Below, piece after piece: positions 17,196 to 29,375 of a stretch of 64,000 bases of DNA. Position 1 is the first letter of the stretch. The number at the start of each line of letters is the position of its first letter. Source of the stretch: Anaerolineae bacterium (lineage in GTDB: Bacteria > Chloroflexota > Anaerolineae > UBA4142 > SHND01); contig JAJTXZ010000001.1 of NCBI GenBank assembly GCA_021463195.1, positions 1 through 64,000 on the forward strand. Direction: 5' to 3'. The translations under genes and the position numbers were made by a program. The notes beneath the pieces were generated by a model. It did no database searches. It worked only from the letters and a program-made list of their open reading frames with translations, and was not told where the DNA came from.

Positions 17196-18639
17196 GGACA
17201 GGTTCGCGCGGTTTGAGATGATAGAGCGCAAGCATCGCGCCCGCCAAAATCCAACCGTACACCGCGAAATCAAAACCGGGAATGCCGATATTGTAAACGA
17301 ACGGAATAAACCAATCTCCCAAACCCATCGCGAACAATGAACCGACAAAACCGCCCAGCACGCCATAATTAAAGCCGCGCAAAAAGCCGGTCGGCATCTG
17401 ATTGCGTTGCGCCAAGCCAACGTGAAAGATCGAGTACAGCAGCCACAAAAAGACGCTTACGCCGACGACACCCATTTCGGCGAGAATATCAATATAATTG
17501 TTGTGCGAGACCCACGCGGCGCCGGGATAATATTTTTGATAGAACGGCAAATAGCCGGCCGGTCCCGCGCCGAAAAAGATATTGGTCTTGGTCAATGTCA
17601 AATCAAACACAATAATTTGCCAAATCTCGAAACGGTTTGAATCCGACTTGATCGCGTCGTCCAATAAATAGTGGTAATAAAAATCGAAACGCGTGATGAC
17701 CAGAATGACTCCCGCGACCAGAAAAACGAGCAGCAATTTTTTGGAGCGAAAGAACGTAAGGAATAATACTGCCACGACGGACGGCATCCAGCCCGAAAAC
17801 CAGACGGCGGTCCCTTCCGCGCCGCGATAAATCCAAAGCGCCGCGAGCGCAAGCAACAATCCGCGCTGCCACAATCGCAAGTTTTGGTTAAAATAGACCT
17901 GAGCCATTGAAAGCGCCACGACCCAGAGCGCATACGCCTGACCGGTCTGCAAACGCAAATCGCCAATGCCGAGCCGCACATTAGTAATCCGTTGAATCAA
18001 ATCGGGCACCGCAAACGCGATCATGAGCGCGAACAAAAGTTTGAACCATTTCTCTTGGCGCAAAACGCTTGCGGTCATCAACATGACTGTTGGCAGCAAC
18101 ACCATTAGCGTCACGCCGCCAATCTGCGCAAAGGTAAAACCTGATTCGGTTTTTGCCCAAATTCCCTGTCCGAACAAATCAGGACGCAGCAATAACCAGC
18201 TATAGGGGACCGATAAAATCGCCAAAATAATAAACAAGATTGCGGGCAAAACATAGGGACCCGTTGTCAACTTGGCATCGCGCTTGACGAGCATTGACAA
18301 GAGCCAAAGGAGCGTCACGACAGCTGCGACAATCAGACTCGCGGGAATATTCGTCGCGGTGCCGGTGGGAATCGTAAAGCGCACAAAAAACGAAGTGATA
18401 ACAATCGCGAGAATCCCCAATTCAGCGCGATATAATACCAAGCCCATGAGTATGAGCATCGCCACGCCGAGAATACTCATTTCGAGGAGCGTGCGTCCGC
18501 GAAAAACTTGGCGCCCGCCCATCAAGCCAAGCGTGATAGCGACGGAAAGCGTCAGCGCAATTAGAATCCATTTGGACCAATTGATATGACGAAATCCGCC
18601 GGTATCCACTCCGATGCGTTCCAAACCTTGCGTCAGCAT
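17176..18639 (-). CDS. O-antigen polymerase/ligase-like membrane protein (Wzy_C family)
   Basis: The chosen start is ATG 18639 with AAGG four nt upstream, overlapping the preceding stop; this gives 487 residues. There are about eleven to twelve membrane helices. The large outer loop near the C-terminus has the family signature NIFFGAGPAGYLPFYQKYY followed by WVSHNNYIDILAEMGVVG, matching the G-x-GPG...HN-x-Y...E-x-G pattern of Wzy/WaaL proteins. It would polymerise lipid-linked repeat units, or ligate a glycan, at the outer membrane face. It is embedded in a run of glycosyltransferases, which favours polymerase. A second family member lies at 61596-63440. No Wzx flippase is seen nearby. Confidence 0.83.
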   Translation of the reverse strand: MLTQGLERIGVDTGGFRHINWSKWILIALTLSVAITLGLMGGRQVFRGRTLLEMSILGVAMLILMGLVLYRAELGILAIVITSFFVRFTIPTGTATNIPASLIVAAVVTLLWLLSMLVKRDAKLTTGPYVLPAILFIILAILSVPYSWLLLRPDLFGQGIWAKTESGFTFAQIGGVTLMVLLPTVMLMTASVLRQEKWFKLLFALMIAFAVPDLIQRITNVRLGIGDLRLQTGQAYALWVVALSMAQVYFNQNLRLWQRGLLLALAALWIYRGAEGTAVWFSGWMPSVVAVLFLTFFRSKKLLLVFLVAGVILVITRFDFYYHYLLDDAIKSDSNRFEIWQIIVFDLTLTKTNIFFGAGPAGYLPFYQKYYPGAAWVSHNNYIDILAEMGVVGVSVFLWLLYSIFHVGLAQRNQMPTGFLRGFNYGVLGGFVGSLFAMGLGDWFIPFVYNIGIPGFDFAVYGWILAGAMLALYHLKPREPVHAHSNI

Positions 18640-19823
18640 AAACCTTGAGGCGCGCACTTCAGCAACAGCTGGTTGAAATGTTCGCCAATGAGCGTCCAAT
18701 CGTATTTGGCGCGCGCGAGCGCGTACGCGTTGTCGGTCAAGCTCTGGCGCAGCGGTTCATTGCGAAACAATTCCAGAATCGCGTCCGCAAACGCGCGCGG
18801 CGTGTCCGCCAGCAATAAATGTTCTCCATGCCGCACGCTCAAGCCTTCCGCGCCTTTGGAAGTTGACACGATAGGCGTGCGCAAAGCCATCGCTTCCAAG
18901 ATTTTCAAACGCGTGCCGCCGCCTTGTCGTAACGGCACAACGCAAATGGCGCTGGCTTTGACCAGCGGCTTGACCTCCGCGACATAGCCCGTGAACGAAA
19001 CAATATTATCTGCGGATAATTCATTTTGGGCAACTTGATTTGCGCGGCCCGTGATGCGCAAATGCGCGGCGGGTTCTTGGGCGCGCACCAAGGGCAAAAT
19101 CTCGCGGACAAAATATTGCGCCGCGTCTCGGTTGGGCGCGAATGCAAGCGCGCCATTGTAAATCAAGGATAACGGTTCGACCGATGCCGTAATCAAATCC
19201 GCCGCGTCGCAATCCACGCCGTTTGGCACGATGGCAATTTGCGTGGACGCAAGACCTAAAGCCAGCGCGTGCGCGCGCTCGACCTCTGAAACCGCCGTCA
19301 CCAATCGAAAATATTTCGCGAGGTTTTGGACCAAGTGTTTGAATTTGACCCAAGTCAAATAATTACGCCGTCGCGCCCAACCGCGCGCGTTAACATACGC
19401 ATCTCGAAAAATTCCGATTTCTAAATCGTCAAACACTAAATTCGACGCGTTGATTTCCGCCGCATAGCGCGCCATGCTCAATTCGCTTGCCACAACCGCA
19501 TCATATTTGTTGGCGTCGAGCGTTTGGCGAATGGCTGCGCTGACTGCCGCGTCGTAGGTTGCCGTCAGATAGCGCGGCTGCGTTGAAAAAAACGCGCGCA
19601 GCGCGGACAAACGACGCGGCGCGAATGGTTTGCGCGGTAGAGCGATAATGTTTTCGCACAGTGCGTCCAATTCAGGAACGCGCGTCACAGTCTGATCGGG
19701 ATCGGTCAGCGCAATCAAAGTAATTTGATGCGCGCGCAGTCCGCGCAACAGCGCGCGCGTGCGCTGGCGCGATCCGTTGTCGGGCGGGTAGGGGAACCAA
19801 CTGGCAAGAAAAAGAATTCTCAA
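18633..19823 (-). CDS. GT4-family glycosyltransferase
   Basis: This 396-residue enzyme starts MRILFLASWFPYPPDNGSRQ at a TTG (19823), overlapping the stop of the preceding GT2 by 4 nt. That suggests coupled translation. Motifs include LVFDDLEIGIFRDAY in the acceptor half and IVPNGVDCD, LIYNGALAFAPNRDAAQYF and GGGTRLKILEAMALRTPIV in the donor half, with the donor Glu in LEAMA. It belongs to the same subgroup as 12229-13419 and 23445-24674. Confidence 0.87.
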   Translation of the reverse strand: MRILFLASWFPYPPDNGSRQRTRALLRGLRAHQITLIALTDPDQTVTRVPELDALCENIIALPRKPFAPRRLSALRAFFSTQPRYLTATYDAAVSAAIRQTLDANKYDAVVASELSMARYAAEINASNLVFDDLEIGIFRDAYVNARGWARRRNYLTWVKFKHLVQNLAKYFRLVTAVSEVERAHALALGLASTQIAIVPNGVDCDAADLITASVEPLSLIYNGALAFAPNRDAAQYFVREILPLVRAQEPAAHLRITGRANQVAQNELSADNIVSFTGYVAEVKPLVKASAICVVPLRQGGGTRLKILEAMALRTPIVSTSKGAEGLSVRHGEHLLLADTPRAFADAILELFRNEPLRQSLTDNAYALARAKYDWTLIGEHFNQLLLKCAPQGLC

Positions 19824-20731
19824 CGCGACTTTTCAAGTTTGTCCGAGCCGCTTTGGTCGCGCCATTCATCGCGCAGCGCGCGCGCCAACGCGTCGCGGTG
19901 CGCGCGCTGCGCGCGCCAACGCGGCAGCAGCGTCCACGCGGTCAAGGTGCGAAGATGGCGCGCCAGCGTCTTGAAATACGCGCTGCCTCTGCCGCGATGT
20001 TTGCGGAGCAGCCGCAATTCATTGCGCGCGGAATAATAAGTGACATGCGGCGCGGGTTTGTACATGCGCTTGACGCCCGCGTGCCAGACGCGCGCGCGTG
20101 GCGCAAACAACACTTCGTAGCCGCGTTGTCGCGCGCGGATGCCCCAATCCACATCTTCGCCGTACATGAATAAAGACGGGTCGAGCAAACCGATGTCGCG
20201 CAGCGCGGCGGCGCGCGCCAAAATCGCGCAGCCGGTCAACCATTCCACTTGCGCGTCATCGGAAAATTTGCCTACATTCGTTTCGTTCATGCCGCGATGG
20301 TACGCGCGCCCGTCCGATGTCAGCAATCCGCCCGCGGACTGGATTACATTTTTTTCGTCGGCGTGATACACCAGCGGTCCCAGCAGCGCAGCGCGCGGAT
20401 GTTCGCGCGCCGCTGCGAGCAGCGCATCCAGCCAATCCGACGCGACAATCACATCGTTATTCACCAACGCCACAAATTCCGCGTTGCGCCGCAGCGCGTA
20501 GGCGATGCCGCGATTATTGCCGCGCGTATAGCCGAGATTTGCGTTGTTCGCGAGGACCGTGACGCGCGGAAATTCGCGCGCGACGCGCATCAATGTTTCG
20601 TCGGTCGAAGCATTGTCCACGACCAGCACGTTAAACTGCGCGGGCGGCGCGGCATACAGCGCTTGGAGGCACGCGCGGGTAGCTTGCCATTGATTGAATG
20701 TCAAGACCACCACCCAAACAGCGCCCGTCAT
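19820..20731 (-). CDS. GT2-family glycosyltransferase
   Basis: This 303-residue GT-A enzyme starts at ATG 20731. Motifs are VVVLTFNQWQATRAC, VLVVDNASTDETLMR, NLGYTRGNNRGIAYAL, LVNNDVIVASDWLD (NND, the DxD equivalent), WLTGCAILARAAALRDIG and MYGEDVDWGIRARQRG. The tail after about 230 is strongly basic and Arg/Trp-rich, typical of peripheral membrane attachment. It lies 6 nt downstream of the flavoprotein gene. Closest relatives in the window are at 28464 and 16257. Confidence 0.88.
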   Translation of the reverse strand: MTGAVWVVVLTFNQWQATRACLQALYAAPPAQFNVLVVDNASTDETLMRVAREFPRVTVLANNANLGYTRGNNRGIAYALRRNAEFVALVNNDVIVASDWLDALLAAAREHPRAALLGPLVYHADEKNVIQSAGGLLTSDGRAYHRGMNETNVGKFSDDAQVEWLTGCAILARAAALRDIGLLDPSLFMYGEDVDWGIRARQRGYEVLFAPRARVWHAGVKRMYKPAPHVTYYSARNELRLLRKHRGRGSAYFKTLARHLRTLTAWTLLPRWRAQRAHRDALARALRDEWRDQSGSDKLEKSR

Positions 20732-20737
20732 GCGCGC

Positions 20738-22093
20738 TCAGCTCCACACCGTTTCGGGCGCGCCGTTCAAAATAAAATTCACCGCCTCCGCGCCTTGCAT
20801 CACCGAATGATCCATGTTGCCGATTTCGTATTTCCACGAACCGAAACGCCCGCGCGACAAGATATTGCGCTGCATCAAAAAGGGTTGCAATCTGGCTAAC
20901 GCCGCGTCGCGCTCGAGCGTTGGAATGGGATACGCATATTCCGATTCCTCGACATATCTGGAAACGATGCGCGCGCGGTCGGCGTCTTGGAGCAGCGCAC
21001 TGTTGACCAAACCGTCAATCGTTTCATCTACCACGCGCGCGCGGTCAACCGGTTTGTGCGGCGAAAACGAAATCTCGCACATCAACGAACTGTAAATATC
21101 CGCGCGTCCATCTGGCACATTGTGCGGTGAATAATTATGAAAATAGGTCACGCGGTAGAATGGGCTGTTGCTTTCGGGGAAATACATCCAACACCAATTG
21201 GTCTCGATGCGTTTTTCCAAACCGATGCCGACAGTAAAGATGCCGTTGTGTTGAAGCAAGCGCGCGGCATCTTCCAAAGCGCTCTGGCGCGGCTTGAGCA
21301 ATGGGATTAAAAGATCGAGCGGCATGGTTGTCACGATGGCGTCAAACGTGTCGCCGCTGCCGTCTTGAAAACTGACTGTGCGTTTTGCGAGATCGAGTTC
21401 GACGAGCGTTTTGTTGCAATGCACGCGGTCTTGGAAGCGTTTTGCCGCGCGCCGATAGATTTCGCCCGTGCCGCCATACAAAGGAAATTTGAATTTATTG
21501 TTCGGGCCCCAATTCACATCATCGCGCGCATAGACAACATTTCGCAGAACACGCGCGAGGTCCACTTTGCTCACGCGTTCGGCAATCCATTGCTTGTCCA
21601 TCCTTTCCAAGGGATATGCCCAAACTTTGAAATTGTAGGGGCGCATAAAATACTTGGCGATGCCTTCGCCAAACAATGCCGTTGTCCACGCGCCAAAGTT
21701 TTGAGTGTCCTCGTACGCATTCTCTTGATTGGCTTGGACGAGCCCGAGCAAACATTCCATCAACGCGTCTTGAGGCAAGTAACGCACATTGTTTTGAAAC
21801 GGATACGGCACCCAGGTATCCAACAAGCGAATCCAGCTTTGACGCTCGTGTTCCAAATAATCCGCGCCGAGCATCTGATTCAAAAATTCATCAAAGTACG
21901 GATAGTGCGAAAAGATAACATGCCCGCCTTCGTCCCACACAAAGCCGCGCGCGTCGGTGTGCGACGAAGCATGCCCGCCGATGTAGGCATTGCGTTCGTA
22001 CAAGTTCCAATTTTCGTAACCCAATTCATGCAAGCGATACGCGGCGCCAATTCCGGTGGGACCTGCGCCAATGACCACGATTCGACTAGACAC
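20738..22093 (-). CDS. FAD-dependent oxidoreductase/UDP-galactopyranose-mutase-like protein
   Basis: I chose the GTG at 22093 because AAGGAG ends 5 nt upstream; another GTG at 22099 overlaps that site. This gives 451 residues. The N-terminal dinucleotide fold is VVIGAGPTGIGAAYRL, then NLYERNAYIGGHASSHTD and FVWDEGGHVIFSHYPYFDEF. The pattern is that of the amine-oxidase/protoporphyrinogen-oxidase and UGM superfamily. WVPYPFQNNVRYLP and FMRPYNFKVWAYPLERMD resemble the substrate region of UGM-like proteins (mutases making furanose sugars). A role in making or rearranging an activated sugar fits the setting. A desaturase or oxidase role cannot be excluded. It overlaps the upstream GT stop by 8 nt. 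Confidence 0.75.
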   Translation of the reverse strand: MSSRIVVIGAGPTGIGAAYRLHELGYENWNLYERNAYIGGHASSHTDARGFVWDEGGHVIFSHYPYFDEFLNQMLGADYLEHERQSWIRLLDTWVPYPFQNNVRYLPQDALMECLLGLVQANQENAYEDTQNFGAWTTALFGEGIAKYFMRPYNFKVWAYPLERMDKQWIAERVSKVDLARVLRNVVYARDDVNWGPNNKFKFPLYGGTGEIYRRAAKRFQDRVHCNKTLVELDLAKRTVSFQDGSGDTFDAIVTTMPLDLLIPLLKPRQSALEDAARLLQHNGIFTVGIGLEKRIETNWCWMYFPESNSPFYRVTYFHNYSPHNVPDGRADIYSSLMCEISFSPHKPVDRARVVDETIDGLVNSALLQDADRARIVSRYVEESEYAYPIPTLERDAALARLQPFLMQRNILSRGRFGSWKYEIGNMDHSVMQGAEAVNFILNGAPETVWS

Positions 22094-23441
22094 GCACACT
22101 CCTTTTTGCCATGACTGTATTGTACAGCGCCAGCAATTCGTTCATTTCATCATCCATTGGTTTCACGCGCGGGATGCCGCGCCGCAATGTTTCGACGCGC
22201 GCGGGTTCATCCACCAAACTTTGGATTTGGCGCGCCAAGTCATTCACGTCGCCGCGCGCAAACAGCAAGCCATTTACATCATGCGTGACATATTCCGCCG
22301 CGCTGCCCAAATTGCCGGCAATGACGGGCGTGCCTGTCTCGAACGCTTCGCGCACCACGCGCGGCGCATTTTCGTACCAAATCGAGGGGAACGCCAAAAC
22401 ATCAAGCCCTTGCAGCACGGTATAAACTTGCTCGCGGTCATACGTTCCCGCAAAGATGATACTTGGGTTGCCGCGCGCTTTCGCTTGCAATATTCGACCG
22501 AATGTAGGAAACGCGTTCACGTTGCCGTACAGAATGAGCTGCGGCGGTTTCGCGCGCGGCGTGATTTTTTGAAACGCGTCAATCAGCACGTCAACGCCTT
22601 TCATCTTGGTCATTTGTCCCAGATAGCCGATGCGTAAATGGTCGGACGACGATTTGCGCCAACGCGCGGTAAGCGGCGGTTTCGGTTCGAGATGCGCGAT
22701 GAGATGTAATTTTTCTCTTGGCACCTGATTTGCCTCCACCATGTCCATGATGAATTGCGACGGCGAAATAATCGCGTCGGTTTGAATTAACGCGTCAAAT
22801 AATTTATCGCGCCGCGCGCCAAGTTGTCTCTTGCGCGCCGCGAGTCCCGTAGAGTTTGCGAGCAACGAATTGTTTGCGGCAAGATGCCAAAACGCGCGCG
22901 ATGCGCGCGGCGCGCGTTCGTCGAAAAAACGATAGCGGCGTTGTTGGTCCATGACGCAGCGCGCGCAATCTACCAAGTCGCTGGGACCCTCGCACAACGT
23001 GTTGTCGCCGCGCAAGAGAATGTTGACGGCGCATTGAAACCAGAATTCGAGCAAGGTGACAAAGGTGGGAATCCCTGCCGCGCGCGCCGCATCCAGCGCG
23101 CTGGCTGAAATGAGATAGCCGCCGATCACATGGAACACGTCAGGCGGGTCTTGCGCCAACCAGGTTCGCAGATGCTCGCCAATCCACGGATTGTCATACG
23201 CGTAGCGGAATGGGTCAGGCGCGCGCTCAAGATTAAAAAAAAGACGGCGCACGGGAATTCCATCAAAGGTGTCATCCACAAAACGCAGCGTATTTGTTTC
23301 GGTCGCGTTTGGCGATTCAACGCAAAGGACTCGCACACGGTGACCGCGCCGCTGCAGCCAGCGCGCGGTCTCGTAGGTGCGTAATTCACCCCCCCCCCAA
23401 TACTTTGGCGGAAAGTGATGAGTCGCCAAGAGAATGTTCAA
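22086..23441 (-). CDS. GT4-family glycosyltransferase with intragenic G10 tract
   Basis: This 451-residue transferase begins at TTG 23441 (NILLATHHFPP), three nt after the previous stop. The glycine-rich acceptor loop YWGGGELRT is encoded through a run of ten G (plus-strand C at 23389-23398). An insertion or deletion there would shift the frame near codon 16. Donor motifs are IGYLGQMTKMKGVDVLIDAF, ILYGNVNAF, AFPSIWYENAPRVVREAF (E-x-x-x-x-x-x-E) and TPVIAGNLGSAAEYV. A cysteine pair near VDCARCVMDQQ follows LCEGPSD, a feature shared by GT4 proteins with a small Cys-rich insertion. Its 3' end overlaps the flavoprotein start. Confidence 0.88.
   Translation of the reverse strand: MNILLATHHFPPKYWGGGELRTYETARWLQRRGHRVRVLCVESPNATETNTLRFVDDTFDGIPVRRLFFNLERAPDPFRYAYDNPWIGEHLRTWLAQDPPDVFHVIGGYLISASALDAARAAGIPTFVTLLEFWFQCAVNILLRGDNTLCEGPSDLVDCARCVMDQQRRYRFFDERAPRASRAFWHLAANNSLLANSTGLAARKRQLGARRDKLFDALIQTDAIISPSQFIMDMVEANQVPREKLHLIAHLEPKPPLTARWRKSSSDHLRIGYLGQMTKMKGVDVLIDAFQKITPRAKPPQLILYGNVNAFPTFGRILQAKARGNPSIIFAGTYDREQVYTVLQGLDVLAFPSIWYENAPRVVREAFETGTPVIAGNLGSAAEYVTHDVNGLLFARGDVNDLARQIQSLVDEPARVETLRRGIPRVKPMDDEMNELLALYNTVMAKRSVRV
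23389..23398 (-). repeat. Homopolymeric G10 tract in glycosyltransferase gene
   Basis: Ten consecutive C on the plus strand (G on the coding strand) encode the end of Trp and three Gly codons. Tracts of this length in glycan genes are known slipped-strand mutation sites in other bacteria. Gly in the neighbouring genes is mostly GGC, so the GGG codons stand out. Confidence 0.95.
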
Positions 23442-23444
23442 GGT

Positions 23445-24674
23445 TTAATTGTCCGCATCGCGCGCGCCGAGAGTTTGATAGATCTGATTCAACAGCTGCG
23501 CCGCGTGCGTCATGGAATATTTTTGGACGGCGAGTTGGTAACCTGCTTCGCCCAACGCGCGACGCTGCGCCGAATCGCCAAGCAGCGCGATGACTGCCGC
23601 CGCGAAATTTTTGGCGTCGTCAGCCCGAAGCAAATGTTTTCCGGCTTGCGCTTCTAAACCTTCGGCGCCGATTGTGGTAGCGACGACCGCTTTCCGCATC
23701 GCCCACGCTTCGATAATTTTAATGCGCGTCCCGCTGCCGCTCAAAATGGGCGCGATGCACACCGTCGCCTGTTCGAGAAAAGGACGCACATCCGCGACAT
23801 CCGCGTGAACGTGAATTTGCGTGTTTTGCATTGCCAGAATAGAGGGCGCGGGTTTGTATCCGACAATGTTCAATTCCGCCGCAGGCACGGCAGATTGGAT
23901 TTGCGGAAAAATTTCGCGGACGAAAAACTCGAGGGCTTGGACGTTGGGCATGTACGAAAGCGTTCCGGTAAAGAGAATCGAATTTTCCACCGCAGGCGGA
24001 TGGTCACTTGAAAAGTATTCCAAATCTACCGCGTTGGGCGTCATAAAGGTTCGCGCCGTTGGCGCGATTTGGAGCGCGGTGGCACGGTCGGTTTCGGAAA
24101 CAAAGAGCGCGGCGGCGGCGTTCGTCAGAATCGTTTGCTCGACGTGTTCAAGTTTTTGAATTTCGCGCGCGTGCTGCCATTGATGGGTGCGCCGCCGCAA
24201 ATTCGCGCGGTCAATCCGCGCGAATAAAATCGAAAAGAGGTCCGGGAAATCTGCCAACACGCGGCGCGCGGCGCGCGGCGCATTTATGAGCATCGGTTCG
24301 CCGATGATATGCACAAGCTCAGGCGCGCGCGTCTGAATGACTTGGTTAATCGCTTCACGCAGAACCGGGTCGTATTTTTCATGATAGATATGCGGTTTGG
24401 TTGCGAACAGCGCATGCCGCCACGCGCGAAATTGGCGTTTGAGACGCGCGCTCGGTTGCGCTGCCGGTTGCGGGCGCGCAGGATTGGGCAGGCGCACGAG
24501 TTGAAAGGGGACGGCAGGCGAGGTTTGCGGTTCAGGCAAACTTTCCGGATTGGTGAACGCAATCGTGAATTCATGTTCGCCCGCGAGTTTCCGCAAACGA
24601 TGAAACGTTTGTTGAACGCCCATCGTGTTATTGTCCGCGCGCGGCGGCGCGTTCGAAACAACAAGGATACGCAT
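23445..24674 (-). CDS. GT4-family glycosyltransferase
   Basis: This 409-residue enzyme starts at ATG 24674, which shares a base with the upstream TGA (TGATG), so translation is probably coupled. The N-terminus is MRILVVSNAPPRADNNTMG. The donor half has FMTPNAVDLEYF, ILFTGTLSYMPNVQALEFF, LNIVGYKPAPS, GSGTRIKIIEAWAMRKAVV and GAEGLEAQAGKHLLRAD. Glu in IEAWA is the donor-site residue. It belongs to the same subgroup as 12229 and 18633. Confidence 0.87.
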   Translation of the reverse strand: MRILVVSNAPPRADNNTMGVQQTFHRLRKLAGEHEFTIAFTNPESLPEPQTSPAVPFQLVRLPNPARPQPAAQPSARLKRQFRAWRHALFATKPHIYHEKYDPVLREAINQVIQTRAPELVHIIGEPMLINAPRAARRVLADFPDLFSILFARIDRANLRRRTHQWQHAREIQKLEHVEQTILTNAAAALFVSETDRATALQIAPTARTFMTPNAVDLEYFSSDHPPAVENSILFTGTLSYMPNVQALEFFVREIFPQIQSAVPAAELNIVGYKPAPSILAMQNTQIHVHADVADVRPFLEQATVCIAPILSGSGTRIKIIEAWAMRKAVVATTIGAEGLEAQAGKHLLRADDAKNFAAAVIALLGDSAQRRALGEAGYQLAVQKYSMTHAAQLLNQIYQTLGARDADN

Positions 24675-26044
24675 CAATCTATATAACCCAGCGCTTTTAA
24701 CCGTTCCACCACCTGCGCGTCAAGCTCATTCTCTTCGGCGCTTGACGTTTCCGGCGCCTTGCCTTCCATCCACGCGCGCAGCGCTTGAAGCAGCGTCTGC
24801 GCGGTTTCGGGCTGCGTTGCAAAACAATCATGCCGCTCGCGCGGGTCGTCTGTCAGATTATACAATTCAAATTTATGTTCGAGGTGACGCGGCGTGTAAA
24901 TCAATTTCCATTCGCGCGTGCGTGCCATGCGAAGATACCCTTCCGTGCCCGACATGTAGCGCCAAGGGACGTTGTGATAATCGCGTTCACTCTCCGCAAA
25001 CGTATATGCGCGTCCGCCTGTGCCGTGCTGCATCAAGCCGGATAAACTTGTGCCATCTAGCTTGTCCGGGACCGACAGACCGACGTGTTCCAACACGGTT
25101 GGCAGAATGTCAATGGATTGCACTTGCGTATCAATGGCTTTGCCGCGCGGAATATCTGGTCCAAACAAGAGCAGCGGCACGCGCACGGCTTCGTCATACA
25201 ATTCATCGCCGTGGTCAAACCAAATCCCGTGGTCGCCCAATCCTTCGCCATGGTCGCCCATGACGACGAGCAGCGTTTGGTCGAGTGCGCGCTGATTGGT
25301 CAAACCTGCCACCAGCCGTTCCAATTCGCCATCCACAAAACGAATCGCCGCGTCGTAATGCGTGACCGCGTGCGCATAGTCCAACGGCGAACTCGCTTGA
25401 CCCATCAAGAAATAACGGCGGTCATTGAAATCGTTAAAGACGTGCGCGCGCCCTTGACACGCTTCGTACAATTCAACAAAAGCTTGCGGCGGTTGATAGG
25501 GCCAGTGCGTTGTAAAGTAACGCAGCAATGTAAAGGTTGGCGTATCGGGATGTTTTTGAATCCATGCCAACGTATCAGCAGTGCGTTTTTGGTCGTGTTC
25601 AAAAAAAGAGCGTGCAGGCGCGCGTTGACTGCCGCGCGCGAGACGTTGCCGCCAGCGCGCGGTTTTTCCGACAGGTTGATTGTCAAAATAATCAAAGCCG
25701 CGCGCCAAGCCCGCGTTATGCAAATCATCCGTATCCGCCCAGCCATGCCAGCCGGCAGTATGCAGAATGCTGCCGAGAGTGGGAATTTCCGACGCGAGGG
25801 GTTTGTCACCGATGAAACGCACGCCGTGCCGCTGAGGGTACAAGCCGGTTAGGATGGAGGTGAATGCCTGCCAGGTGCGAACCGCAGGCGAGATACATTG
25901 TGAAAATATTGTCGCGCGTTCGGAAAACTTTTCCAAAAAGGGCGTAGTCGGACGCGCATAGCCGAACAAACTGAGATGGTCGGGGCGCAGCGCTTCGATG
26001 ACAAATAAAATAAGATGGCGTACGGGACCGGAGGATTCGTTCAT
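24674..26044 (-). CDS. Sulfatase-superfamily enzyme with Thr at the nucleophile position
   Basis: The start is ATG 26044, one nt after the upstream stop; this gives 456 residues. The alkaline-phosphatase/sulfatase fold is clear: HLILFVIEALRPDHLSLFGY, TPFLEKFSERATIF, TGLYPQRHGV, VVMGDHGEGLGDHGIWFDHG (D264-H265) and SIDILPTVLEHVG. In sulfatases the nucleophile lies in C/S-x-P-S-R-x4-T-G and becomes formylglycine. Here the aligned segment is TWQAFTSILTG with Thr57 in that place, and no Cys or Ser. This is the arrangement of phosphoethanolamine/phosphoglycerol transferases and phosphodiesterases, so phosphate chemistry on the glycan is more likely than desulfation. No signal peptide is visible, so it may act in the cytoplasm. 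Confidence 0.82.
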   Translation of the reverse strand: MNESSGPVRHLILFVIEALRPDHLSLFGYARPTTPFLEKFSERATIFSQCISPAVRTWQAFTSILTGLYPQRHGVRFIGDKPLASEIPTLGSILHTAGWHGWADTDDLHNAGLARGFDYFDNQPVGKTARWRQRLARGSQRAPARSFFEHDQKRTADTLAWIQKHPDTPTFTLLRYFTTHWPYQPPQAFVELYEACQGRAHVFNDFNDRRYFLMGQASSPLDYAHAVTHYDAAIRFVDGELERLVAGLTNQRALDQTLLVVMGDHGEGLGDHGIWFDHGDELYDEAVRVPLLLFGPDIPRGKAIDTQVQSIDILPTVLEHVGLSVPDKLDGTSLSGLMQHGTGGRAYTFAESERDYHNVPWRYMSGTEGYLRMARTREWKLIYTPRHLEHKFELYNLTDDPRERHDCFATQPETAQTLLQALRAWMEGKAPETSSAEENELDAQVVERLKALGYID

Positions 26045-26045
26045 A

Positions 26046-27293
26046 TCAATTTTGTTTAGATGAAACTTGGACTCGGCCATGTTTCCCGTTCCAATTTCGC
26101 AGGGTATTGTCGTATTCCGCGAGATTGCGCCGCGCGATAATATTGGGCGCATAGCTTTGTTCCACGCGCGCGCGCGCTTGAAGACCCAGCGCGCGCGCGC
26201 GCGTTGGATTTTTTAAAAGTTCAACCAGCGCGGTCGCGAGCGCGGCGGGGTCGTCGGGCGGAATGAGCAAACCACTGTGTTGGTCTTGAATCATGTCTTG
26301 CAGTCCGCCGACGCGGCTTGCAATCACGGCGCGCGCGCTCGCCATCGCTTCCAGACATGCGATGCCGACGGCTTCCCATTGCGAGGGAAAGACGCACACG
26401 TGCGCGCGCCGCAGCTGCGCGCCGAGTTCTGTGTTGGGCAGCGCGCCGGTAAAGGACGCATAGCGCGCGACTCCAAGCGCGTTCAACTGCGCTTCGAGCG
26501 CCGCGCGGGTTGAGCGGCCGTCAAAAATTCGGTCATTGCCGACAAAGACAAAACGCGCGTTTGGAATTTCAGCTATGACGCGCGGGATGGCTTTGACGAG
26601 CGTAAAGACGCCTTTGCGCGGTTCGAGCTGTCCCGTGTACAGCGCTAGCGGCGCAGCGTCATCTAACGCGGGTGGAAGCGCTGGAAAGCGTTCGAGGTTG
26701 ACGGGGACCGGAATGATGGGAATATTTTGCGCGTCGAGATGATAGCGTTCTGCCACAATATCGGCAAGACTGCGGCTCCCGGCGATAATGCGGTCGGCGC
26801 GCCGCGTCCACTCTTTATCCAACGCGTCCACAATGCGCCAATCGCGCGTCGCGCGCATTTGATTTAACGCGCGCAAAACAAATAATGGCGTGTGCAGGCG
26901 AATCAGAATCGGGACTTGGCGCGTGAACGAATAAAAAAAACCTTCCGCCCACAATTCGGTCGCTTCGATAATTTCGATTTTGTTGGCGCGGACAATGCGC
27001 GTCAACGCGCCGTAAAGGCCGAACGCGTATTCCAGTTGATGTTTGGTCCACGGAAAATAGGCGTGCCAAATGCGCCGCAAGATAGGCAGCTCGAATTTCC
27101 AACGACGAATGCGATGCACCTGCACGCGGTCCTGCATGTACGTATACGACGCTTGGCCGGGCGCGGCGGTGGAGACGACATGCACGGTGTGGCCCATTTG
27201 AGTATACGCGTGCGCGATGCTGTGCATGTACGAACCGACGCCGCCCATGGCGGATTCCGGCGGATATTCTTGCGCGAGCAATAGAATATTCAT
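26046..27293 (-). CDS. GT4-family glycosyltransferase
   Basis: The open frame runs to 27608, but ATG 27293 (MNILLLAQEYPPESAMGGVG) is right: it makes a 4-bp ATGA overlap with the upstream stop. This gives 415 residues. Motifs are the Gly-rich acceptor loop MGGVGSYMH, PVPVNLERF, LYTGQLEPRKGVFTLVKA, VCVFPSQWEAVGIACLEAMA (E-x7-E) and ARAVIASRVGGLQDMI. All are as in classical retaining GT4 enzymes. A T8 run lies in the coding strand at 26933-26940, shorter than the G10 tract of its neighbour. Confidence 0.9.
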   Translation of the reverse strand: MNILLLAQEYPPESAMGGVGSYMHSIAHAYTQMGHTVHVVSTAAPGQASYTYMQDRVQVHRIRRWKFELPILRRIWHAYFPWTKHQLEYAFGLYGALTRIVRANKIEIIEATELWAEGFFYSFTRQVPILIRLHTPLFVLRALNQMRATRDWRIVDALDKEWTRRADRIIAGSRSLADIVAERYHLDAQNIPIIPVPVNLERFPALPPALDDAAPLALYTGQLEPRKGVFTLVKAIPRVIAEIPNARFVFVGNDRIFDGRSTRAALEAQLNALGVARYASFTGALPNTELGAQLRRAHVCVFPSQWEAVGIACLEAMASARAVIASRVGGLQDMIQDQHSGLLIPPDDPAALATALVELLKNPTRARALGLQARARVEQSYAPNIIARRNLAEYDNTLRNWNGKHGRVQVSSKQN

Positions 27294-28462
27294 GCGGCGG
27301 ATTGGCGCAGCCACGCGGCGGGCAGCATGGCTTTGAACCATGTCAAGATTACTTGGCGGCGCAGCGCGCGCGTGGGTTGATATTGCAGCGCGCGGCGCAA
27401 ATGCTGGCGCGCCAATTTCAATTCGCGTTGGGCATAATACAAACGCGCGAGCGTTTCGTGCGCGAGCGCGAACGCGGCATTGCGCGACGCGGCGACGGAA
27501 TCGGCGCGCGCAAAGGTTTGCTCCAACGCGCCGCACAGAAATTCCGCGCCATATGCCAGATCCAAATATTCGAGCGTGCCTTTGTAACCGTTCGGCTGCG
27601 TGACGCACGCCGCTTGATAAAAAACGTCGAGGTCCGCCGCGAGCGTGGGGTCGGCGCTAAACGCGACGCTCAATTTTTGTTGCGCGCCCGCGAGGTCGCG
27701 ATAAAACGCGCGACGCAACGCTTCGCGCAACGCTTGACGCGCTAACGCGATGTGGCGATACGGCGCGGTCGCTTGCGGCCAAGTCGCGAGCGCGCGTTCT
27801 AGAACGAAACGCGACGAAGCTTCCATCCGTTTCCAATCGCGAATGGTATTGTCGGCGTGCATCCGATAATAAAATAGCGCCTCTGGCACAAACGCGAACG
27901 CGCAGCCCGCCGCCGCCAAGCGAATCCATAAATCCCAATCTTCAGCCGCCGACAGGGAGACATCAAAACCGCCAACCCGTTCCACCGCCGCGCGTTTGAG
28001 CAGGGCAAAACTCAAGCCGAAATTTTCGACGAGTAGCGCGCGCAGCATATCGTCGCGTCGCGTCGGAATAAACGGCGCTTGCGGCAAGAGCGCGCCGGTG
28101 TGATCCATCACGCGCGAACCATAATAGACCACATCCGCGCCGGTCGTGGCGTAAACCTGACGCGCGCGTTCCAACATGGCGGGATGCAAGAAATCATCGT
28201 CATCCATGAATATCACAAATTCGCCGCGCGCCTGTTTCAATCCAAAGTTGCGCGCGGCAGAGCGTTCGCCGTGTTCGTGATAAATATAGCGGACGCGTGT
28301 GTCCTGGACACTTGGGACAAGCTGCGCGGTATTGTCGGTTGACCCGTCGTCAACGACCAACAACTCCCAATCCGCATCGCGCTGGCGCAAAATATTTTCA
28401 AGCGTCAGCGCGAGCCAATGCGCGCGATTATAGGTTGCGATAATAAAAGTTGTTAGCGCCAT
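27290..28462 (-). CDS. GT2-family glycosyltransferase with helical C-terminal extension
   Basis: ATG 28462 follows the upstream TGA after one nt; this gives 390 residues. The GT-A domain (about 1-230) has TTFIIATYNRAHWLALTLEN, LLVVDDGSTDNTAQL, ERSAARNFGLKQARGEF, IFMDDDDFLHP (metal-binding DDD) and SAAEDWDLWIRL. Residues 240-390 are helical and Ala/Arg-rich with a TPR-like end (ARLYYAQRELKLARQHLRRAL), possibly for protein contacts. It is coupled to the GT4 downstream. Confidence 0.88.
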   Translation of the reverse strand: MALTTFIIATYNRAHWLALTLENILRQRDADWELLVVDDGSTDNTAQLVPSVQDTRVRYIYHEHGERSAARNFGLKQARGEFVIFMDDDDFLHPAMLERARQVYATTGADVVYYGSRVMDHTGALLPQAPFIPTRRDDMLRALLVENFGLSFALLKRAAVERVGGFDVSLSAAEDWDLWIRLAAAGCAFAFVPEALFYYRMHADNTIRDWKRMEASSRFVLERALATWPQATAPYRHIALARQALREALRRAFYRDLAGAQQKLSVAFSADPTLAADLDVFYQAACVTQPNGYKGTLEYLDLAYGAEFLCGALEQTFARADSVAASRNAAFALAHETLARLYYAQRELKLARQHLRRALQYQPTRALRRQVILTWFKAMLPAAWLRQSAA

Positions 28463-28463
28463 G

Positions 28464-29375
28464 TCAATGTAAAGATTGCTGCCCAAAGCGGCGCAAAAAA
28501 TAATCGCGGATGCCTTGCGTGATGGCGCGATGCAGCGCCGCCGATCGTTCGGGCGAGCGCGGCTGCGCCACGCTCAAAAGAGGTTGGGTGTGCGCGTGAC
28601 AAAGCGCGGTGTGGTACATCCACCGCTTTTGCCGCCATGAAAAATTGCGTTCGATGAAAAGTAACGTATTACGCATGTAATAATACGCGTAGGTTGGCGT
28701 GAACTGTTCGCCAAAGCTGCGCGACGCCTTGTGCCACAATTTTGAGGCGGCGACATAACGCAGAGTGACCCCCAGCCGCCGCGCGCGCAAACTCCAATCG
28801 GTGTCTTCAAATAACAAAAAAAATCGTGGCTCAAACAGCCCAACGTTTGCCCACACCGCCCGCGATGCGATGATGGCGCAGCCCGTCAACCATTCCGTTT
28901 CGCCTGACGCGTTATATTCGGCGCTGTCGCGTTGATTGTAACCGCGATGCTTGGTTTGCCACGCGGTCAGTTCGCCGCCCGCGTAATACACGGTGTCGGG
29001 CGCGTCGGCGAAAAAACATTTCGGCGCGGCGGCTGTGTTTGGATGAGCTTGCAAATCGCGGACGAGCATTTCGATGCAGTCTGGCGCGAGCGTTGTGTCA
29101 TTATTCAACACCAAAATATAATCCGCGTTTTGTGCAAGCGCATACCGCAAGCCAACGTTGTTGCCCTCCGCGTAGCCGAGATTCTGTCCATTTTCGATGA
29201 GATGGATTTCTGGAAATTTTGCGCGGATGGTCGCAACGGTTGCATCGGTTGAACCATTATCAGCAAGGACGATGTGCAATGAGGGATGCGTCTGTCGCGC
29301 AAGCGTATCCAAACATTCGAGCGTGTCTGGCAGATGATTCCAAGTGAGCAAAATGACATAGACGGATGGGGTCAT
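28464..29375 (-). CDS. GT2-family glycosyltransferase downstream of a 50-bp repeat array
   Basis: The start is ATG 29375 (MTPSVYVILLTWNHLPD), giving 303 residues. The same frame stays open through the repeat array to 29789, but those residues are repeat-encoded Arg/Phe-rich sequence and not part of a GT2 fold. Motifs are IVLADNGSTDATVATI, NLGYAEGNNVGLRYAL, LVLNNDTTLAPDC, WLTGCAIIASRAVWANVG and LFEDTDWSLRARR. There is no Shine-Dalgarno before the ATG. The repeats lie immediately upstream, so their copy number could change the leader. Confidence 0.87.
   Translation of the reverse strand: MTPSVYVILLTWNHLPDTLECLDTLARQTHPSLHIVLADNGSTDATVATIRAKFPEIHLIENGQNLGYAEGNNVGLRYALAQNADYILVLNNDTTLAPDCIEMLVRDLQAHPNTAAAPKCFFADAPDTVYYAGGELTAWQTKHRGYNQRDSAEYNASGETEWLTGCAIIASRAVWANVGLFEPRFFLLFEDTDWSLRARRLGVTLRYVAASKLWHKASRSFGEQFTPTYAYYYMRNTLLFIERNFSWRQKRWMYHTALCHAHTQPLLSVAQPRSPERSAALHRAITQGIRDYFLRRFGQQSLH

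Follow-up and report, generated by a model that had tools for sequence, protein, structure and literature searches.

A G10 tract in a Chloroflexota glycosyltransferase gene belongs to a genus-level class of long G-runs in ordinary coding DNA

Bacterial genes are usually kept free of long mononucleotide runs, and poly-G tracts are taken as contingency loci of host-adapted pathogens. Why, then, does a glycosyltransferase gene of an Anaerolineae bacterium contain ten consecutive Gs? We analysed a window of 64 kb (the whole stretch of 64,000 nucleotides), in which the G10 homopolymer at 23389..23398 on the minus strand (C10 on the plus strand) is the only G/C run of at least 7 nt and was reproduced in 0 of 100 dinucleotide shuffles. 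A sequence-only reading had proposed this tract as a candidate switch for glycan variation. The tract is confirmed at this position, inside the glycosyltransferase gene at 22086..23441, and the real finding is the genome-wide class to which it belongs.

The tract gene (22086..23441, minus strand) has a TTG start and encodes a GT4-type glycosyltransferase of 451 aa. Its product carries Pfam domains of the GT4/GT1 type (PF00534, PF13692, PF13579 and PF13439, all above cut-off), comprising both the GT-B donor domain and the GT4-like N-terminal domain by which GT4 membership is recognised. The assembled allele is ON, as homologous sequence continues in a single frame on both sides of the tract. 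The minus-strand frame across the tract, TAT TGG GGG GGG GGT GAA, places the run on W15, G16, G17 and G18, flanked by Y and E codons. The sequence-only reading had assigned it to the conserved acceptor-loop glycines at codons 14-17. The actual codons are 15-18, and the comparison of loop codons that it had suggested limits the conserved Gly to the central two: homologues with 40-46% identity keep these two in a loop of the form x-G-G-A-E (TGGAE, VGGAE) and encode it by a mixture of codons, for example GGC GGC GCT. W15 and G18 are not conserved and are peculiar to the tract protein among the homologues compared. The best matches share 40-46% identity with the tract protein, and no congener has an orthologue close enough to compare. 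Two other claims hold. Gain or loss of one G is predicted to truncate the 451-aa enzyme, to 18 aa after +1 (G11) or 104 aa after -1 (G9), and neighbouring genes prefer GGC for Gly, the run not being forced by codon use.

The adjacent genes on the minus strand are free of tracts. Upstream, a GT4-like glycosyltransferase gene (23445..24677) has its stop codon 3 nt ahead of the tract gene's TTG, and downstream an FAD-dependent, amine-oxidase-like gene (20738..22099) overlaps the tract gene at its end. The other glycosyltransferases of the cluster around 22086..23441 within the 64-kb window likewise lack a tract. The same-strand run of genes around the tract gene spans 18633-28486 of the window and includes several glycosyltransferases, the amine-oxidase-like FAD enzyme and one gene judged by eye to be sulfatase-like.

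The genome carrying the window (G000; 4.72 Mb in 143 contigs, 55% GC) contains 47 runs of exactly G8, 32 of G9 and 60 of G10. Runs of at least 10 number about 84 (81 preceded by a non-G base and three at contig starts), and runs of at least 9 about 116. We took all runs of at least 10 with their flanks and predicted the surrounding genes with a simple hexamer caller. Seventy-eight of the about 84 runs fall within predicted genes, 45 with G on the coding strand (sense) and 33 with C (antisense). They show no position preference within genes and no 5' bias (KS p = 0.30), and nearly all fall on Gly-Gly-Gly or Pro-Pro-Pro sites. Among the 40 host genes examined with Pfam are polA (DNA polymerase I), dnaX, mfd, a ClpC-like ATPase, ksgA, selB and a SelD-type AIRS protein, together with genes for acetyl-CoA synthetase-like, amidase, hydantoinase and ABC ATPase proteins, glycosyltransferases and others; RsmH, HisF and a phosphofructokinase-like protein are further hosts named from sequence motifs only. 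The host genes are thus housekeeping genes as much as surface genes. As one of about 84 runs in ordinary genes of this bacterium, with similar runs in several close relatives, the GT4 tract looks like a by-product of a genome-wide tendency rather than a purpose-built switch.

Codon statistics were obtained from three genomes of the genus only, namely G000, G001 (sampled partly around known tracts) and G002. GGG accounts for 10.5% of Gly codons, and two consecutive Gly are written GGGGGG in 0.4% of cases. Gly3 sites with 0, 1, 2 and 3 GGG codons were observed 165, 21, 4 and 41 times against 165, 58, 7 and 0.3 expected, and Pro3 sites with 0, 1, 2 and 3 CCC codons 49, 32, 12 and 18 times against 39, 49, 21 and 3 expected. 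Relative to synonymous shuffles, G6-G8 runs are depleted (G6-G7 about seven-fold) and G10-G11 runs are in excess; G002 shows the same G6-G8 depletion without the G10-G11 excess. With runs of at least 10 counted over the whole genome and a shuffled sample of 1.23 Mb of coding DNA, the scaled excess of long runs is, as an arithmetic estimate, roughly 7-fold, or about 20-fold with the expectation taken from tract-free regions. Dinucleotide and synonymous shuffles rule out chance or codon usage as the cause of the tracts. The fraction of pure runs, extrapolated to the genome, is about 6% for both Gly3 and Pro3 and hence strand-symmetric, and these similar rates point to a process acting on DNA rather than on RNA or protein.

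The excess is shared by three of the five congeners, with exact G10 counts of 120 in G001, 83 in G003 and 72 in G005; G004 has 13 (and 129 G8 runs) and G002 has 1. Sister-family genomes contain 0-3 G10 runs each, and the highest count outside the genus, in a set of 300 genomes from this phylum, is 37. Runs of at least 7 G occur in G001 at 9 of 11 G000 tract sites against 4 of 34 other Gly3/Pro3 sites (p = 4e-5). G000 and G001 both have G10-G11 in an rsmH-like gene, a GT28-like gene, selB and a 906-aa gene (L149), and a penicillin-binding-protein-like site (L132) has G11 in G000, G003 and G005 where G002 and G004 have GGC GGC GGC. At the 25 tract sites with an orthologue in G002, this genome has no run of at least 8, and at most of them it keeps Gly3 or Pro3 at equal protein length with GGC, GGA, CCG or CCT codons. 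The codons replaced by tracts include GGA, CCT and CGG besides GGC. Such replacement at constant length speaks against growth by slippage, and we rejected expansion from shorter runs, the orthologues being equal in protein length. The six-congener tree, weakly resolved and with one gene represented by a G001 paralogue, does not set tract-free G002 clearly outside the others; members of the genus have therefore probably come to differ in their tracts by change after its origin. We found no near-identical duplicate copies with and without a tract within one genome in the 1.4 Mb examined, and a search for a second genome of the same species returned none.

Loss of mismatch-repair genes was rejected as the cause, since genes with MutS_I (PF01624) and MutL (PF01119) domains are present in all six genomes, G000-G005. 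The genome resembles mismatch-repair-deficient hypermutators in its homopolymer frameshifts and differs from them both in the presence of these genes, judged by their domains, and in its A/T runs, which show an ordinary decay with length. Most members of the genus have two MutS_I-domain genes (in G000 on contigs C104 and C17); one is found in tract-free G002, whose genome is 79% complete.

We suggest that a strand-symmetric DNA process or drive at the level of the genus maintains pure G9-11 runs and that the glycosyltransferase is a bystander, a reading to which we give about an even chance. The 23389-23398 run is in this view a member of a class of pure G9-G11 (C9-C11) tracts found at the level of the genus, mostly coding, in which GGC, GGA or GGT (CCG, CCT or CCA) codons at Gly3 or Pro3 have given way to GGG (CCC) while protein length stayed the same. 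A strand-symmetric bias of mutation or repair that acts on DNA, or a molecular drive, would favour and maintain pure runs beyond about 8 nt, and purifying selection would hold most tracts in frame. The length of 9-11 may come from the nine Gs of Gly3 together with Gs of the flanking codons. Slippage may incidentally switch the glycosyltransferase off, as it may in any tract gene, with the tract not placed there for glycan variation. We infer both the mutational or drive nature of the process and real slippage in cells. Several observations stand against this explanation. It calls for a mechanism able to convert GGC GGC GGC into G9 without a change of length, and the codon insertion expected from simple slippage is not seen. 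The depletion of G6-G8 does not fit a plain mutational bias towards G-runs, and the U-shaped run-length pattern could equally reflect selection for, or recognition of, at least 9-10 Gs. Furthermore, the near absence of tracts in the closely related G002 requires a process that can start and stop among members of one genus.

Alternatively, the G9-11 tracts might be selected or tolerated for the stochastic frameshift heterogeneity that they create, a distributed form of bet-hedging perhaps softened by transcriptional slippage. Signs of unstable length speak for such a role: of the tracts that could be scored, 6 of 44 in G000 and 2 of 16 in G001 show a change of frame, giving 8/60 compared to 4/190 at GGCGGCGGC controls (p = 0.0016). 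A PLP-dependent enzyme gene of G000 (L106:7763) is out of frame in the assembly, with G10 at a site that needs G11, and a phosphofructokinase-like gene of G001 (L234:17304) is out of frame with G10 where G000 has an in-frame G11. Contigs end within 20 nt of a run of at least 10 in 7 cases against 0.11 expected, and hisF (identified by motif) is split inside its tract, with contig C84 (L138) ending in ACGGT-G11 and C124 (L158) starting with G14-TGCGG. These frame changes and contig breaks hint at instability of tract length. However, they may be population variants or may stem from slippage at G-runs during PCR or sequencing. Tracts in essential genes would carry a cost, and the lack of 5' bias also counts against bet-hedging, which we consider unlikely.

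A sequencing or assembly artefact, in which GC-rich stretches such as GGCGGCGGC are miscalled as G-runs in some metagenome-assembled genomes, appears to us about as improbable as bet-hedging. Tract presence does vary among assemblies of one genus, with almost none in G002, the replacement is of fixed length and nearly all-or-none, and two-colour chemistry over-calls G (PMC13218037). Moreover, distant genomes with raised G10 counts show junk poly-G. In G299 and G232, which belong to an unrelated genus (sites at L274-L303), the G10 runs are mostly low-complexity GC junk, often at contig ends, and show what technical poly-G looks like. The G000 tracts are unlike these, being single and located in clean coding DNA. 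Most GGCGGCGGC sites in G000 read normally rather than as G-runs, the replaced codons are of several kinds and not GGC alone, and G000 shares tracts at identical codons with G001, and at other sites with G003 and G005, within diverged flanks. Contig C15 of G000 (L166:1-26) starts with 26 Gs; as this run reads outward as poly-C, it is not the dark-cycle poly-G tail of a two-colour read.

For the glycosyltransferase itself, a further possibility is a dedicated contingency locus, where G10 was selected as a means of turning a surface glycan on and off by slippage. The glycan-switch reading is only partly supported: the GT4 tract is a pure repeat of at least 8 G/C in frame, a change of one unit abolishes the predicted product, the gene sits among other glycosyltransferases, and the tract length lies within the switching range of Campylobacter, the tracts of C. 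jejuni being also mostly G8-G11 (PMC4965091, PMC6321876). As in the C. jejuni phasome, the tracts are pure G/C runs of 8-11, mostly within reading frames, whose frame is switched by a change of one base. C. jejuni, however, has about 12-29 poly-G/C tracts, mostly in surface-modification genes, and Campylobacter isolates show a near-neutral mix of ON and OFF tracts (PMC6321876, PMC4965091 for the counts; PMC6321876 for the mix). Here about 84 runs of at least 10 lie in all kinds of genes and on both strands, recur in congeners, and occupy Gly3/Pro3 codons that are conserved in a tract-free relative. The Pfam names of the 40 host genes, read as a list, show no concentration in surface or environment-facing functions, with polA, dnaX, mfd, selB, selD, ksgA and the ClpC-like gene all carrying tracts while other glycosyltransferases of the cluster carry none. 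Instead of a substantial OFF fraction near the neutral expectation, 38 of the 44 confidently scored tracts are in frame. A dedicated glycan switch at 23389-23398 is therefore unlikely, and selection of this G10 for that purpose falls below both preceding alternatives in our estimation.

Equally far down we place the possibility that G10 is a motif subject to molecular drive or recognised by a protein, such as a DNA-uptake or chromosome-organising sequence with a core of at least 10 Gs. DNA uptake sequences of Neisseria and Haemophilus are short repeats of a specific 10-mer that occur genome-wide, on both strands and in coding DNA, at permissive codons. The tracts resemble them in all of these respects of distribution, and their threshold-like length preference, conservation at orthologous sites and purine-rich flanks would fit a recognised motif. 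Unlike uptake sequences, they are homopolymers present in far fewer copies (only about 84), and copies of G10 with one mismatch are not in excess, at 9.3/Mb in G000 compared to 8.2/Mb in tract-free G002. We also rejected an extended motif beyond the run, the purine flanks being the only common feature, as well as a strong strand or replication polarity, with an oriented GC skew of only +0.013 and a strand bias that is weak relative to GC skew.

Coding DNA generally avoids mononucleotide repeats (Ackermann and Chao, PMC1378130), and a survey of homopolymeric tracts found poly-G/C generally under-represented, with an excess of 7-8-nt tracts at more than 50% GC only in Thermus thermophilus (PMC2831843). 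The seven-fold depletion of G6-G7 agrees with both studies; above about 9 nt, in contrast, the sign reverses. Long G-runs here pile up in core genes of a genus with mismatch-repair genes, depleted just under a threshold and in excess just over it. The open-access literature searched yielded no earlier description of tracts like these in the group, which is not proof of absence. It is possible, although we hold it as distinctly less probable than the maintenance process proposed above, that the genus keeps more than 100 pure G9-G11 tracts at core-genome Gly3/Pro3 sites through an undescribed drive or repair process, leaving much of the core proteome prone to reversible frameshifting. If confirmed, the class would break the simple rule that a poly-G tract marks a phase-variable surface gene, would caution phasome pipelines about false positives and, with tract-rich and tract-free congeners at hand, would offer a tractable system for the origin and maintenance of such runs.

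Individual sites gave further observations. The G10 in dnaX (L135:7727-7736) lies just past domain III, close to the position at which frameshifting terminates the short gamma product in other bacteria; it is absent in G002, and its proximity to the gamma frameshift position is probably a coincidence. A methyltransferase-like site (L110:2641-2650) has G10 (RGGG) in G000 compared to an A8 run (KKNG) in G002, G003 and G005, the two homopolymers occupying the same place. At another site (L111:8422-8431 compared to L256), the local DNA of G000 and G002 is 97% identical, yet three C/G differences fall among the ten tract bases. Finally, an imperfect inverted repeat of about 50-65 nt, a dispersed palindromic element, occurs at many places in the genome, for example at L140:8318-8392.
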